Source of the DNA: an uncultured Clostridia bacterium
GTDB lineage: Bacteria; Bacillota; Clostridia; Oscillospirales; Ruminococcaceae
DNA: 41,627 nucleotides
Assembly (NCBI GenBank): GCA_947589035.1
Contig: CANPYZ010000024.1
Location: 1 to 41,627 of the forward strand
Direction of reading: 5' to 3'
Under the pieces are notes generated by a model that was given only the letters and a program-made list of their open reading frames with translations, was not told where the DNA came from and made no database searches. The translations under genes and the position numbers were made by a program. Below are positions 12,494-23,146 of the stretch, piece after piece (position 1 is the stretch's first letter; each line of letters begins with the position of its first letter).

Positions 12494-12522
12494 TTGACAA
12501 ACAGAAAAAATCATGTTATACT
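12494..12522 (+). promoter_or_regulatory. Promoter of the tRNA-like / nitrogenase-like operon
   Basis: TTGACA (12494-12499), a 17-base spacer and TATACT (12517-12522). Start predicted near 12529. No other strong promoter is visible before the genes downstream, and no T-tract terminator lies between the tRNA-like gene and the NifB-like gene. Confidence 0.85.
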
Positions 12523-12582
12523 ATAAGCATATTAAACATATTGTTTTAATATGAAATTAGAAAACAGATTTAGTAAGCGTTT

Positions 12583-12655
12583 GATGCTGTAGCCGTTGGA
12601 ATGGCATAGGTCTGCAAAACTGAAATCGGCGGTTCGAATCCGCCCAGCATCGCCA
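12583..12655 (+). tRNA. tRNA-Cys(GCA)-like gene with atypical features
   Basis: A full cloverleaf can be drawn: acceptor GATGCTG/CAGCATC (7 of 7 pairs), D-stem GCC/GGC, anticodon loop CTGCAAA (anticodon GCA), T-arm GGCGG-TTCGAAT-CCGCC, and encoded CCA (12653-12655). Two things are odd. The anticodon stem TAGGT/ACTGA has an A-G mismatch and a G-U pair, where normal tRNA-Cys has a clean AGGT/ACCT. The discriminator base at 12652 is G, whereas tRNA-Cys carries U73 as its main identity element for CysRS. It lies in the 5' leader of the nitrogenase-like operon. It may be a specialised or non-translational tRNA, or a regulatory mimic. Confidence 0.75.
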
Positions 12656-12719
12656 TAGGCGTAATATTCTGAAATGTTCAGCAAATTTAATAACCAAAAA
12701 CAGAAAGAAGTGATATTTT

Positions 12720-13589
12720 GTGAATACATATGAAAATTTGCAAAAATCGCACCCTTGTTTCGGCGGACAGAAAAATAACGCCGGAAGAATCCATTTACCC
12801 GTAAGCCCAGGTTGTAACATTGCCTGCCGTTTTTGCGAAAGGGCAATCAACGACACGGAAAACCGCCCCGGTGTGACTTCAAAAATTATCACGCCTGATG
12901 AAAGTATTGACATTCTTGAAAAAGCTCTTGCTCTTTGTCCGGAAATTACCGTTGCCGGAATAGCTGGTCCGGGCGATACACTCGCAACAGATTACGCACT
13001 GGAAACGTTTCGGAAAATTGGAGAAAAATTTCCGCATTTAATTAAGTGCATGAGTACAAATGGTTTACTTTTAGATGAACGTGCGGAAGAAATCATTGCA
13101 GCCGGAATTGATTCTCTTACAGTGACAGTGAACGCCGTTGACCCTGAAATTGAGGCAAAACTAAATAAATATATTATTTATCACGGGAAAATGTATTTCG
13201 GCGTTGAGGGTGCGGAAATTTTGATTCGTAATCAATTGAACGGCATTAGAAAAGTTGCCCAATCGGGCATAACTCTTAAAATTAATACTGTTCTTGTTCC
13301 GGAAATCAATGGAACACATATTGAAGAAATCGCTAAAACCGTAAGTGAAGCCGGTGCGAAAATTTATAATATTATTCCGTTGATTCCGCAATTTGAATTA
13401 GCTAATTATTCCGCTCCGACTTGTGCGGAAATTGACCACGCCCGAACACTTGCCGGAAAATATATTGACGTGTTCCGACATTGTCAGCATTGCCGTGCTG
13501 ATGCGGTGGGCGTTCCTGGAAAATCAGAATTTGGTGAACAGATTTACCAGCGGCGAATTTCCGCAAAGGAGACGTTTTCCCATGGATAA
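12720..13589 (+). CDS. NifB-like radical SAM protein (cofactor maturase)
   Basis: 289 residues, equal to the NifB radical SAM core without a fused NifX domain. GTG start with AAAGAAGTG upstream. The N-terminal HPCF, the cluster motif CNIACRFC (Cys32, Cys36, Cys39), then NRPGVTS, GIAGPGDTLA, KCMSTNGL, VTVNAVDPEI, NIIPLIP and C-terminal CRADAVGVPG are all NifB signatures. In the family NifB fuses two 4Fe-4S clusters, adds carbide from SAM and a sulfur, and makes NifB-co, the core of nitrogenase-type cofactors. As NifE and NifN are absent, NifB-co or a close derivative may go directly to the NifDK-like pair. The stop overlaps the next gene by 8 bases. Confidence 0.9.
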   Translation: MNTYENLQKSHPCFGGQKNNAGRIHLPVSPGCNIACRFCERAINDTENRPGVTSKIITPDESIDILEKALALCPEITVAGIAGPGDTLATDYALETFRKIGEKFPHLIKCMSTNGLLLDERAEEIIAAGIDSLTVTVNAVDPEIEAKLNKYIIYHGKMYFGVEGAEILIRNQLNGIRKVAQSGITLKINTVLVPEINGTHIEEIAKTVSEAGAKIYNIIPLIPQFELANYSAPTCAEIDHARTLAGKYIDVFRHCQHCRADAVGVPGKSEFGEQIYQRRISAKETFSHG

Positions 13590-13938
13590 ATATAAAATTG
13601 CCGTTGCGACTTCAGATGGAATTGTTGTCAATCAACATTTCGGTCATGCGAATCAATTTCACATTTATGAAGTACAGGACAAAACTTTCACTAAAACGGA
13701 AATTCGTTATACAAACCCTGCTTGCCTTTCCAGAGAACATGATGAAAATGCTGTGCTGAAAAATTTAACTCTGATTAACGATTGCCGTTTTCTTCTTGTG
13801 TGCCGTATTGGTGCATATGCACAGCAACAAGCTGAACAGTTAGGAATTACGCCATTTGAACTTCCACTCATGATAGAAGAGGCTTTAGAAAAAGCCATTT
13901 CATTTATTGAAATACAAAACTTATTTGAAAGGATTTGA
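13582..13938 (+). CDS. NifX/NafY-type cofactor-binding protein 1
   Basis: 118 residues starting at ATG 13582, placed by AAAGGAG at 13565-13571. A single dinitrogenase-iron-molybdenum-cofactor-binding domain: [26 protein letters not shown], and [19 protein letters not shown]. These small proteins carry or hold NifB-co-like clusters between NifB and the apo-enzyme. Immediately downstream of and overlapping the NifB-like gene, so cofactor hand-off is the likely role. Its stop overlaps the start of the NifH-like gene (ATGA). Confidence 0.85.
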
Positions 13939-21210: not shown

Positions 21211-21989
21211 GGAATATTTCTATTCAGCATGTCAGAAAAGAATTTGTGAATCAGGATTCCACGCAGGAAAATATTGTTGCCTTGAATGAGTTCACTCTTG
21301 ATATTCAGCCCGGGGAATTTGTCAGTCTGATTGGACCGTCAGGTTGTGGAAAATCAACATTGTTACGTTTAATTGGCGGATTAGAACGCCCGAGCAGCGG
21401 TTCTATCGTTCTTGACGGTAAGGAAATCAGGAAACCAGGAAGTGACCGTGGGTTTGCGTTTCAGGGTTCTAATCTTTTCCCTTGGCTTACTGTCGAACAA
21501 AATATTTCTTTTGGATTAAAAGCAAGGCATATTTATCAAGACCACAAGCAAGATGTACAGGATTTTATCAATCTGATAGGACTGAATGGATTTGAAAAAT
21601 CTTATCCGCATCAGCTTTCAGGCGGAATGAATCAGCGTGCATCACTGGCAAGAGCGTTAGTCGGTCACCCGAAAGTATTACTTCTTGATGAACCTTTGGG
21701 AGCTTTAGATGCATTTACAAGAATGAATCTACAAAACGAAATTTTGAAAATATGGCAACAGCACAGCATGACCATGATTATGGTGACGCACGATGTGGAC
21801 GAAGCAATATATATGTCTAATAAAGTCGTTGTCATGTCGGCAAGACCGTCAAAAGTAGAAGCAGTAATTGACATTGATTTACCGAGACCCCGTGCCAGAG
21901 CGCAGGATACATTTCAAGTATACCGTTCTAAAATTCTTGATATTCTGAATCTCGGCGGCGATATTGCAGCAATTGAGTATCAGATTTAA
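21204..21989 (+). CDS. ABC importer ATPase (SsuB/TauB type)
   Basis: 261 residues. Walker A GPSGCGKST (44-52), signature LSGGMNQRASLARAL, Walker B VLLLDEPLGALD, switch His in VTHDVDEAIYMS. The family pattern matches SsuB/TauB/NrtD. ATG 21204 has AAAGGAG and overlaps the permease stop by 7 bases. It completes the three-gene importer and drives transport with ATP. Confidence 0.92.
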   Translation: MVGNISIQHVRKEFVNQDSTQENIVALNEFTLDIQPGEFVSLIGPSGCGKSTLLRLIGGLERPSSGSIVLDGKEIRKPGSDRGFAFQGSNLFPWLTVEQNISFGLKARHIYQDHKQDVQDFINLIGLNGFEKSYPHQLSGGMNQRASLARALVGHPKVLLLDEPLGALDAFTRMNLQNEILKIWQQHSMTMIMVTHDVDEAIYMSNKVVVMSARPSKVEAVIDIDLPRPRARAQDTFQVYRSKILDILNLGGDIAAIEYQI

Positions 21990-22022
21990 ATTTTTAGATA
22001 TGAAAATATAGGAGAATATTAA

Positions 22023-23111
22023 ATGAATATGGAATTAACTTTGCAGCAAATTTCAGCAATGCCTGATGATTCTTATTTATTTGTGGATATGCGGAGTAAA
22101 ATTGCTTACCAGAACGGACACATTCCGGAAGCTGTTTTATTCGGCGAAATAACTCACCAATTGCCCAAAAATAAAACAATTATTTTATACTGCACAATTG
22201 GCAGAGAAAGCCTTACCCTTGCTGAAAACTTAAGGGAAAAAGGTTATTCTGCATACAGTCTTTCGGGCGGTTATCGGGCATGGCTGGAAGCTAATTTTGA
22301 AAAGTTCAGCAATGAAGAATTAAAAAGATATGACAGGCAAATCATTCTGCCGCAAGTGGGCGTTGACGGTCAAAGAAAATTAAAAAAGGCGAAAATTTTA
22401 ATTATTGGTGCAGGCGGGCTTGGTTCGCCTGCTGCCTTGTATCTTGCCGGCGCAGGCGTTGGGAAAATTGGCATTATCGATTCCGACAGTGTAAGCATTT
22501 CGAATCTTCAGCGGCAGATTATTCACACAACGGATTCACTTTCCGAAAATAAAGCCATTTCCGCAAAAAAACGCCTTCTTTCGCTGAATCCTGAAATTGA
22601 AGTAACTGCCTATACTGAAAATTTCACGCCTGAAAATGCAGAAAACATTATTCAGAATTATGATTTTGTGATAGATGCGGTAGATAATTTCGAAACAAAA
22701 TTTTTAATTAACGATACTTGCGTATTATTGGAAAAACCTTTTTGTCATGCGGGAATTTTACAATTCGAGGGGCAAGTGATGACGTATGTTCCAGGGAAGG
22801 AATTTCCTTGCTACAGGTGCATTTTTGAAGATATTCCGGAAAATGTCCCGAATTGCAGCCAGGCGGGAATTATTGGTGCAGTGGCTGGAATGATTGGCAG
22901 CATTCAGGCACTCGAAGCAATAAAATATATTTTAGGAATTGGAGAATTACTCACGGGGAAAATTCTTATTATAGACGGTCTTTCAATGAAAACACGAATT
23001 GCAGAATTTCCTGTAAAAAATAAGAACTGTAAAATTTGCGGTGAAAATCCCTTGATAAGAAATATAAAAAATTATACTGAAAAGTATACACTTAATTTAT
23101 GCAAATTGTAA
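22023..23111 (+). CDS. Rhodanese-ThiF/MoeB fusion (E1-like sulfur activation)
   Basis: 362 residues. Residues 1-95 are a rhodanese domain with Cys57 in the active loop (YCTIGRES). Residues 100-345 are an E1-like adenylating domain: RYDRQIILPQVG, nucleotide loop GAGGLGSPAALYLAGAGVG, DSVSISNLQRQ, DAVDNFETK and two CxxC zinc pairs (CYRC, CKIC). Such proteins adenylate the C-terminal glycine of ThiS/MoaD/CysO-type carriers and load it with sulfur. The rhodanese is N-terminal here, whereas in MOCS3-type fusions it is C-terminal. No ubiquitin-like carrier is visible in this operon. Last gene before the terminator, 33 bases after the importer ATPase. Confidence 0.88.
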   Translation: MNMELTLQQISAMPDDSYLFVDMRSKIAYQNGHIPEAVLFGEITHQLPKNKTIILYCTIGRESLTLAENLREKGYSAYSLSGGYRAWLEANFEKFSNEELKRYDRQIILPQVGVDGQRKLKKAKILIIGAGGLGSPAALYLAGAGVGKIGIIDSDSVSISNLQRQIIHTTDSLSENKAISAKKRLLSLNPEIEVTAYTENFTPENAENIIQNYDFVIDAVDNFETKFLINDTCVLLEKPFCHAGILQFEGQVMTYVPGKEFPCYRCIFEDIPENVPNCSQAGIIGAVAGMIGSIQALEAIKYILGIGELLTGKILIIDGLSMKTRIAEFPVKNKNCKICGENPLIRNIKNYTEKYTLNLCKL

Positions 23112-23116
23112 TCATT

Positions 23117-23146
23117 AAAGCACCAGAAAATTCTGGTGCTTTTTGT
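23117..23146. terminator. Terminator of the nitrogenase-like operon
   Basis: AAAGCACCAGAA (23117-23128) pairs with TTCTGGTGCTTT (23131-23142), then TTG. It lies 5 bases after the ThiF-like stop codon. On the minus strand it also has a short T-run and may serve the hsdS gene from the other side. Confidence 0.85.

Follow-up and report, generated by a model that had tools for sequence, protein, structure and literature searches.

Why would an operon that encodes a nitrogenase-like enzyme and a relative of cysteine synthase open with an RNA that resembles a cysteine tRNA? The question is raised by a stretch of 41,627 nucleotides, here called the window, which comes from an uncultured Clostridia bacterium of the Ruminococcaceae (assembly GCA_947589035.1, CANPYZ010000024.1) and is one contig of a genome of 2.4 Mb that is 95.9% complete. 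Eleven genes lie there on one strand (plus, 12720-23111), as read from open reading frames (ORFs) and family profile scans. A first-pass annotation had named the gene families of all eleven, and the profile scans agree with each name; of its wider account, in which a small organosulfur compound is imported and reductively cleaved and the released sulfur or thiol captured, the observations are confirmed in part and the interpretation is partly supported. Its gene inventory missed a tRNA-Cys-like RNA at 12583-12655, within the unit that it claimed, and this RNA is the most unusual and surprising part of the locus. We propose, with a probability of roughly 58%, that the locus is a sulfur-scavenging operon whose mRNA leader carries a mimic of tRNA-Cys that reports cysteine status. 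The features on which this proposal leans are the following.

12494-12522, plus strand: promoter-like site TTGACA-17-TATACT, agreeing with the consensus at 11 of 12 positions and having a TG ahead of the second hexamer; the top plus-strand site of the region
12583-12655, plus strand: tRNA-Cys(GCA)-like RNA in the first gene's leader, with G as discriminator and CCA after it (ARAGORN, Rfam)
12720-13589, plus strand: NifB-like radical S-adenosylmethionine protein in a short form that lacks the NifX domain; its score against nifB is 245 bits, under the 343.65 of the cut-off
13582-13938, plus strand: NifX-like protein (PF02579; family profiles)
13935-14792, plus strand: NifH-like reductase component; 464.1 bits, above the nifH cut-off of 394.35
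14816-15811, plus strand: CysK-like pyridoxal phosphate (PLP) enzyme, a divergent paralogue with the loop IQDQVSRERF against the standard LPDTMSVERR (profiles, loop comparison)
15845-17308, plus strand: D subunit of nitrogenase component 1 type (PF00148), related to methylthio-alkane reductase (Mar) (profiles, PDB matches, tree, residue mapping)
17308-18606, plus strand: K subunit of nitrogenase component 1 type (PF00148), Mar-related (profiles, PDB matches)
18616-19017, plus strand: second NifX-like protein, with a Cys-rich stretch (profiles)

A nitrogenase-like pair and its CysK-like partner

The D and K proteins are the only PF00148 proteins that a search of the whole genome found, with no NifEN pair beside them, so that the operon is not part of a nif system, as had been claimed from the gene set. 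Their nearest solved relatives are the subunits of Mar: D matches MarD (PDB 9fmg) with 318 bits (E 6.7e-94) against 123 bits (E 1e-34) or weaker for nitrogenases, and K matches MarK (PDB 9d9u) with 377 bits (E 1.5e-111) against 91 bits (6e-25) or weaker, which upholds the earlier choice of Mar as the closest precedent. Identity between D and the MarD of Rhodospirillum rubrum is 36%. The phylogeny that had been suggested as a check was run for D, in a tree of 52 rows, and puts it in a Mar-like clade of 29 rows (support 99/98). Within it the clade of the window has 22 rows (100/99), or 23 if a long-branch row is included (100/100); its sister clade is formed by loci L084 and L085 and the Mar group, so that D falls outside the MarD subclade. 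The references other than MarD, seven rows that score as NifE (two), VnfD (two) or NifD-like (three, slightly below the nifD cut-off and above that of the subfamily), sit far from the window clade; two further outlying rows had no family match at the limit used, and the tree tool gave a long-branch warning for some rows. Judged by this placement, D is neither a nitrogenase nor a member of the MarD subclade. Heliobacterial Nfl proteins have also been placed near Mar, as group IV, their roles being noted as not known in the accessible part of the source (PMC9147875).

Relatives of D are widespread. A contig scan of sequenced genomes gave at least 584 confirmed stretches, and the clade counts below refer to the best 80 of them, close relatives only (66-96% identity), some cut by contig ends, together with the window. 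The titles among these 80 include Ruminococcus, Lachnospiraceae, Treponema, Bacteroidales, Veillonellaceae-type bacteria and Clostridium, many from gut or rumen samples, and the tree labels cover three phyla. In the order of the window 16 of 394 sampled genomes have a match, its own included, and the other 15 all lie outside its family; in its class 24 of 391 genomes match at E 1e-50 and eight at 65% identity or more. Horizontal spread of the operon fits this distribution best. The best plasmid homologue of D, on a Treponema saccharophilum plasmid (NZ_AP025290.1, 339100-340569), is only 62% identical, so that the plasmid-borne D is a more distant one; a plasmid is a possible route for spread. 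Spread by phage was considered and rejected, since the tRNA-like pattern had no exact match in viral contigs.

The residues of Mar were mapped onto the 81 D proteins of the clade. Trp195, Phe199, Cys270, His375, Arg428 and His429 (Mar numbering) are kept in all 81 and Gln74 in 77, and the P-cluster cysteines Cys52, Cys77 and Cys143 in 98-100%. The roles of these residues in Mar have been described, and Arg428 with His429 has been put forward as a possible hallmark of the enzyme (PMC12552129, seen in part). The window operon and MarBHDK of R. rubrum thus share not only a NifB-like maturase, a NifH-like reductase and a DK catalytic pair, but also the P-cluster cysteines, the [Fe8S9C] ligands Cys270 and Arg428-His429 and a context of sulfur assimilation. 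They differ in that the window D lacks the N-terminal insert of about 13 residues of MarD and has four further cysteines (42, 45, 56 and 253 in the window protein) that are kept in at least 90% of the clade at places where MarD has none, and in that the window operon has a CysK paralogue, two NifX proteins and the tRNA-Cys-like leader. A second D-like gene of less than 40% identity (about 30%) stands near the operon in 24 of the 81 loci (for example L131, L136, L152 and L159), and 23 of 26 such second proteins have a gap at the positions of Arg428-His429. Other nitrogenase-like DK groups run together with metK and an ABC (ATP-binding cassette) importer at L313 (5446-10503) and L241 (71-9577); they may represent a further sulfur-linked clade.

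The CysK-like gene had been singled out as a distinguishing feature of this operon. It is real, and yet it is not peculiar to this genome: it stands directly before D in 56 of the 81 loci, some CysK lies within 8 kb in 66, and 49 show the complete set of NifB, NifH, CysK, D and K. The gene is thus a recurrent member of the system. Like CysK proper (O-acetylserine sulfhydrylase), the window protein has the PLP lysine and the motifs TSGNTG and GTGGT; unlike it, the in-operon copies never show the standard substrate loop (L/M)P(D/E)TMSxERR (0 of 56), and 34 of the 56 have IQDQVSxER(F/Y). The CysK proteins encoded upstream of NifB have the standard loop in 34 of 36 cases, and both kinds occur together at 34 loci. 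The window protein scores below the curated cut-offs for cysK (298.2 against 350.95 bits) and cysKM (321.6 against 344.15 bits). A standard-looking CysK of the same genome is encoded on another contig, near LysR-, MetB- and MalY-like genes (named by eye from similar tested proteins).

Sulfur genes are frequent around the operon in its relatives, in agreement with the sulfur-linked role first suggested for it. With neighbours named from one representative per single-linkage cluster, the 81 loci include PF01053 Cys/Met PLP enzymes (30), MalY-like proteins (25), LysR regulators (22), solute-binding proteins of family 3 (19), Rrf2 regulators (18) and NifS-type proteins (12). A sulfur role of the operon is well supported.

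A tRNA-Cys-like RNA in the putative mRNA leader

In the window the tRNA-Cys-like RNA begins 60 bases past the promoter-like site and ends 64 bases ahead of the NifB start codon. Many relatives have a tRNA-Cys call by ARAGORN in the corresponding position ahead of NifB, and a related sequence was found in genome G519 by direct search. The further sites were scored with a model, R1, built from 22 copies of the leader RNA. Over 92 sources it gives leader copies at least 77.7 bits and other tRNAs at most 61.5; over 391 genomes of the class three matches reach 77 and the remainder score 59.4 or less; and in the family of G867 (the genome with the L175 place, which is titled Lachnospiraceae) 13 of 299 genomes carry the leader RNA, one of them at only 70.3 bits. 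After removal of duplicates there are 37 sites, all rescored: 24 from the 92 sources, one from the 391 class genomes, one further site and 11 from the G867 family. Dropped before this count were L303 (the L175 place), G849 (the L149 place) and G961:C25 (judged to be the L195 locus, split at contig ends).

These copies keep the fold of a tRNA. In an alignment of 22 rows (20 distinct) that was not fitted to the model there are 35 double-changed cells against 10.5 in shuffles, and none of 500 shuffles reaches that number; a second pair count used a model-fitted alignment. Unconstrained RNAalifold recovers all four arms, and 9 of 18 pairs show double changes. As far as covariation can tell, the fold is under selection. 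The anticodon GCA stands in a seven-base loop in 35 of the 37 copies. The discriminator base is G in 19, A in 18 and U in none, as against U in all 37 canonical tRNA-Cys genes of related genomes (32 + 5), a non-random set made up mostly of the best R1 matches in other genomes of the class. In addition four copies have C in place of U33, the D-loop is short, and the 34 distinct copies all share one mismatch in the anticodon stem. Cysteine identity in bacteria rests mainly on U73 and the GCA anticodon (PMC9976931, seen in part). The leader RNA, with the fold and the GCA of a tRNA-Cys and without its U73, would therefore not be an ordinary tRNA-Cys, and the window genome does have a canonical gene with U73, in a normal tRNA cluster on another contig (G000:C5).

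The gene downstream is nifB-like at 30 of the 37 sites and nifH-like at one (Ruminiclostridium hungatei DSM 14427, L149); at the others it is metK (three), an Rrf2 gene, an M20 peptidase gene and a DsbD_2/HMA gene (one each). The 31 nitrogenase-like genes start about 29-150 nt from the leader RNA, 24 of them less than 100 nt away; metK starts at 43, 286 and 328 nt, Rrf2 at 27, M20 at 68 and DsbD_2/HMA at 137 nt. In G867 and G1110 the metK operon runs on into other nitrogenase-like genes, and no such genes were found in 12 kb at the third metK site (G975) or in 16.7 kb at the M20 site (G1107). Among the 45 NifB-first loci with more than 500 nt of upstream sequence, 20 have the leader RNA. The operon has no such RNA in Lachnobacterium bovis (L174) or in the Butyrivibrio isolates L177 and L181. 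Directly ahead of the leader RNA several relatives have a CysK gene, then a small ORF and a strong terminator-like hairpin, in some without room for a promoter, which suggests read-through from a cysteine operon there; the window copy, unlike these, has a promoter-like site of its own.

Rfam scans at gathering level, covering the window and 20 further loci (21 records), showed no T-box (RF00230) at the operon. The genome has three T-box matches, which by reading of the flanking sequence belong to leuA-, trpE- and thrS-like genes and none to a cysteine gene; the idea of a T-box decoy was rejected on these two grounds. A role as an integration site was likewise rejected, as the 3' end of the tRNA has no second copy in the window. 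Searches of an open-access library, which does not cover subscription papers, turned up no account of a tRNA-Cys element beside nitrogenase-like genes; other cysteine-tRNA systems and a pseudo-tRNA have been described (PMC8762117 and PMC3399842, both seen in part).

Just upstream of the leader the window carries an RNase P RNA (7941-8294), an RtcB RNA ligase gene (9828-11108) and a gene for an RNase Z-like metallo-beta-lactamase (11074-12024). RNase P and RNase Z are tRNA-processing activities. An Rfam scan of the L128 locus found no RNase P RNA. Three weak tRNA-like loci, L047 (G000:C27:1976-2047), L048 (C12:15449-15519) and L049 (C6:631-702), only one of which ARAGORN calls a tRNA, share upstream sequence by eye and are possibly another family of tRNA-like RNAs.

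Layout of the unit and its surroundings

The remaining features of the unit follow the second NifX-like gene.

19023-19052, plus strand: promoter-like site (TTGACA at 19023), 10 of 12 consensus matches, ahead of the importer genes
19035-19084, plus strand: strong hairpin, its T-run short, lying after the second NifX-like gene and ahead of the importer; a possible terminator (repeat I18, z -4.91)
19108-20190, plus strand: substrate-binding lipoprotein of the NMT1 (SsuA/SaoX-like) superfamily (family profiles)
20194-21210, plus strand: ABC permease, TauC/SsuC/SaoP-like (family profiles)
21204-21989, plus strand: ABC ATPase; the top NCBIfam match, SaoA, is under its cut-off (family profiles)
22023-23111, plus strand: rhodanese-ThiF (E1-like) fusion (family profiles)
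23117-23142, plus strand: intrinsic-terminator-like hairpin followed by Ts (-16.4 kcal/mol, z -6.35)

The site at 12494-12522, taken from the start for a strong promoter, is promoter-like and remains the best plus-strand site. The accompanying claim of one promoter and one terminator for the whole unit may not hold: the outer promoter-like site and the end hairpin are there, and so are the inner hairpin at 19035-19084 and the promoter-like TTGACA adjoining it, so that the unit may be two. Both terminators are readings of folds, because the T-run of the inner hairpin is short and a consensus scan of the region for terminators and promoters lists neither hairpin.

The importer had been called sulfonate-type. 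It belongs to the NMT1/SsuA superfamily, and its scores stay under the curated NCBIfam cut-offs for the SsuA family (80.9 against 163.5 bits), SaoX (61.9 against 300), SaoP (90.9 against 295) and SaoA (278 against 360), so that the name holds at the level of the family only. It directly follows the NifX gene in three of the 81 loci (the window, L131 and L133). The E1-like gene, also put forward as a distinguishing part, is found within 8 kb in only four of the 81 loci and is probably accessory. A sulfur-carrier (CysO-like) route by way of the rhodanese-ThiF protein was considered and rejected on this count and on the position of the genome's only ThiS-family match, which is on another contig.

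The part of the window further downstream (23223-38998), which encodes a type I restriction specificity subunit, a dynamin-like GTPase and a HerA/DUF87-type ATPase, may be a mobile region or one for defence. A fluoride riboswitch (29845-29917) stands ahead of a gene for a Na/H exchanger family protein.

A proposed cysteine-reporting leader and its alternatives

From the observed gene content, homology, cluster ligands and conservation, and from a covarying tRNA-like structure that recurs upstream of sulfur genes, we infer a substrate, a product, a role for CysK, co-transcription, and a direction and mechanism of regulation. The NifB- and NifX-like proteins would supply a cluster of the [Fe8S9C] type, the NifH-like protein would deliver electrons to DK at the expense of ATP, and the DK pair would, like Mar, cleave a C-S bond in a small organosulfur compound by reduction. 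The freed sulfide or thiol would next be attached to activated serine or a similar acceptor by the in-operon CysK-like enzyme, leading to cysteine synthesis. In the window genome and two Ruminococcus relatives the NMT1-type importer beside the operon probably imports the substrate. The transcript would begin with a tRNA-Cys mimic in which the fold and GCA are kept and the U73 needed for charging by cysteinyl-tRNA synthetase (CysRS) is lost, acting in cis. In the simplest form it and the real tRNA-Cys would compete for CysRS, much as the thrS operator competes for threonyl-tRNA synthetase: with ample cysteine, free CysRS could sit on the leader and block translation of NifB, and when cysteine is scarce, uncharged tRNA-Cys would draw CysRS off it. 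The leader keeps what CysRS reads and not what charging needs, which fits a binding decoy.

The thrS operator of Escherichia coli, a mimic of tRNA-Thr, is a precedent for such mimicry (PMC9976931, in the part seen), and here as there a tRNA-shaped domain is found in a leader upstream of a start codon, in our case as read from the sequence. The differences are that the domain here would be a nearly complete cloverleaf with GCA, that it stands before sulfur genes and not before a synthetase gene, and that the binding of CysRS is putative. The pseudo-tRNA tRNA-Other of Bacillus cereus is similar as a tRNA-like element outside translation and within a larger RNA; it differs in its Trp anticodon, and the part of PMC3399842 available does not report it as a leader of sulfur genes.

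Several observations weigh against the proposal of a sulfur-scavenging operon under a cysteine-reporting leader. The leader RNA is missing from 25 of the 45 NifB-first loci with sufficient upstream sequence, and is therefore not essential to the system, and a small number of events may account for all 30 copies linked to nifB. In G519 (L120) a CysK gene precedes it by 0.3 kb, and the 39 kb retrieved there contain no nitrogenase-like match (the rest of that genome being unsearched for D), so that it could be read there as a downstream element. Between the leader RNA and metK there is a DUF2292 ORF in G1110 and a similar small ORF in G867, at the two sites where metK is 286 and 328 nt off. The anticodon loop is altered in two of the 37 copies (GAA in L149, an extra base in L306), and the minimum-energy fold of the lone window copy is not a cloverleaf, with a z of only -1.65. 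On the side of the enzyme, His194 of the Mar substrate pocket is Ile in all 81 D proteins and Cys73 is Gly (48) or Ser (27) in 75 of them; residues that line the substrate are thus unlike those of Mar, and the substrate may not be a thioether. Our reading is that D would combine the same metal chemistry as Mar with a different pocket.

The same pocket bears on the best of the alternatives, in which the operon encodes a methylthio-alkane reductase proper and thioethers are converted to methanethiol and on to S-methylcysteine or methionine by CysK-like or MetY-like enzymes. That MarD and MarK are the nearest solved relatives, that all 81 proteins retain the cluster ligands and the Arg-His hallmark and that a PF01053 enzyme is found at 30 loci all speak for it. 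We nevertheless hold it to be unlikely, though worth keeping in view, as D is outside the MarD subclade, with L084 and L085 branching on the Mar side, as His194 and Cys73 are replaced, and as a CysK-like gene directly precedes D at 56 loci, while "cysteine synth" has no occurrence in the main text of the Mar structure paper (PMC12552129).

The leader RNA might instead be an ordinary extra tRNA-Cys gene that stands beside sulfur genes by chance, or the integration site of a mobile sulfur island. ARAGORN and Rfam both call it a tRNA, tRNA genes are common sites for islands (PMC3399842, seen in part), and the operon has moved between phyla. Against this stand the absence of U73 from all 37 copies and its presence in 37 of 37 normal genes, the canonical tRNA-Cys that the host already has, the change of U33 to C in four copies, the occurrence of the RNA before metK, Rrf2 and M20 genes as well, and the fact that the window contains the tRNA 3' end only once; we regard this explanation as rather improbable.

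It is more doubtful still that the RNA acts in trans, as an uncharged tRNA-Cys decoy that would switch on cysteine T-boxes or the stringent response. A GCA anticodon in a normal seven-base loop together with lost charging identity is what such a decoy would show; however, none of the three T-boxes of the genome serves cysteine, the 21 records have none, and the position of the RNA close before start codons suggests action in cis. The leader RNA may be processed by RNase P or may act in trans. That DK fixes N2 as a true nitrogenase, or is a tetrapyrrole reductase, is barely conceivable: the NifH-like protein does exceed the nifH cut-off and the PF00148 fold family is shared, but D and K score far under the nifD, nifK, nifE, bchN, bchB and CfbD-type cut-offs (NCBIfam profiles), D is placed with Mar and far from the NifD, NifE and VnfD rows, and the genome has no NifEN pair; a true nitrogenase is rejected on cut-offs, gene set and tree alike.

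Returning to the cysteine-reporting leader, we consider it an evenly balanced matter whether tRNA-Cys mimics in mRNA leaders form a cysteine-status sensor of their own kind, with a regulon that, across Clostridia, takes in metK, an Rrf2 regulator and further sulfur genes along with a new C-S-cleaving nitrogenase-like enzyme clade. In public annotation such a mimic would be concealed under the name "tRNA-Cys". If the proposal is true, a whole clade of reductases of the [Fe8S9C] type supplies sulfur for cysteine in gut and rumen bacteria, which would bear on sulfur and hydrocarbon gases in gut and rumen and on the evolution of nitrogenase chemistry. The leader would then be another route, beside T-boxes and the thrS operator, by which an mRNA can read the supply of an amino acid through tRNA recognition.

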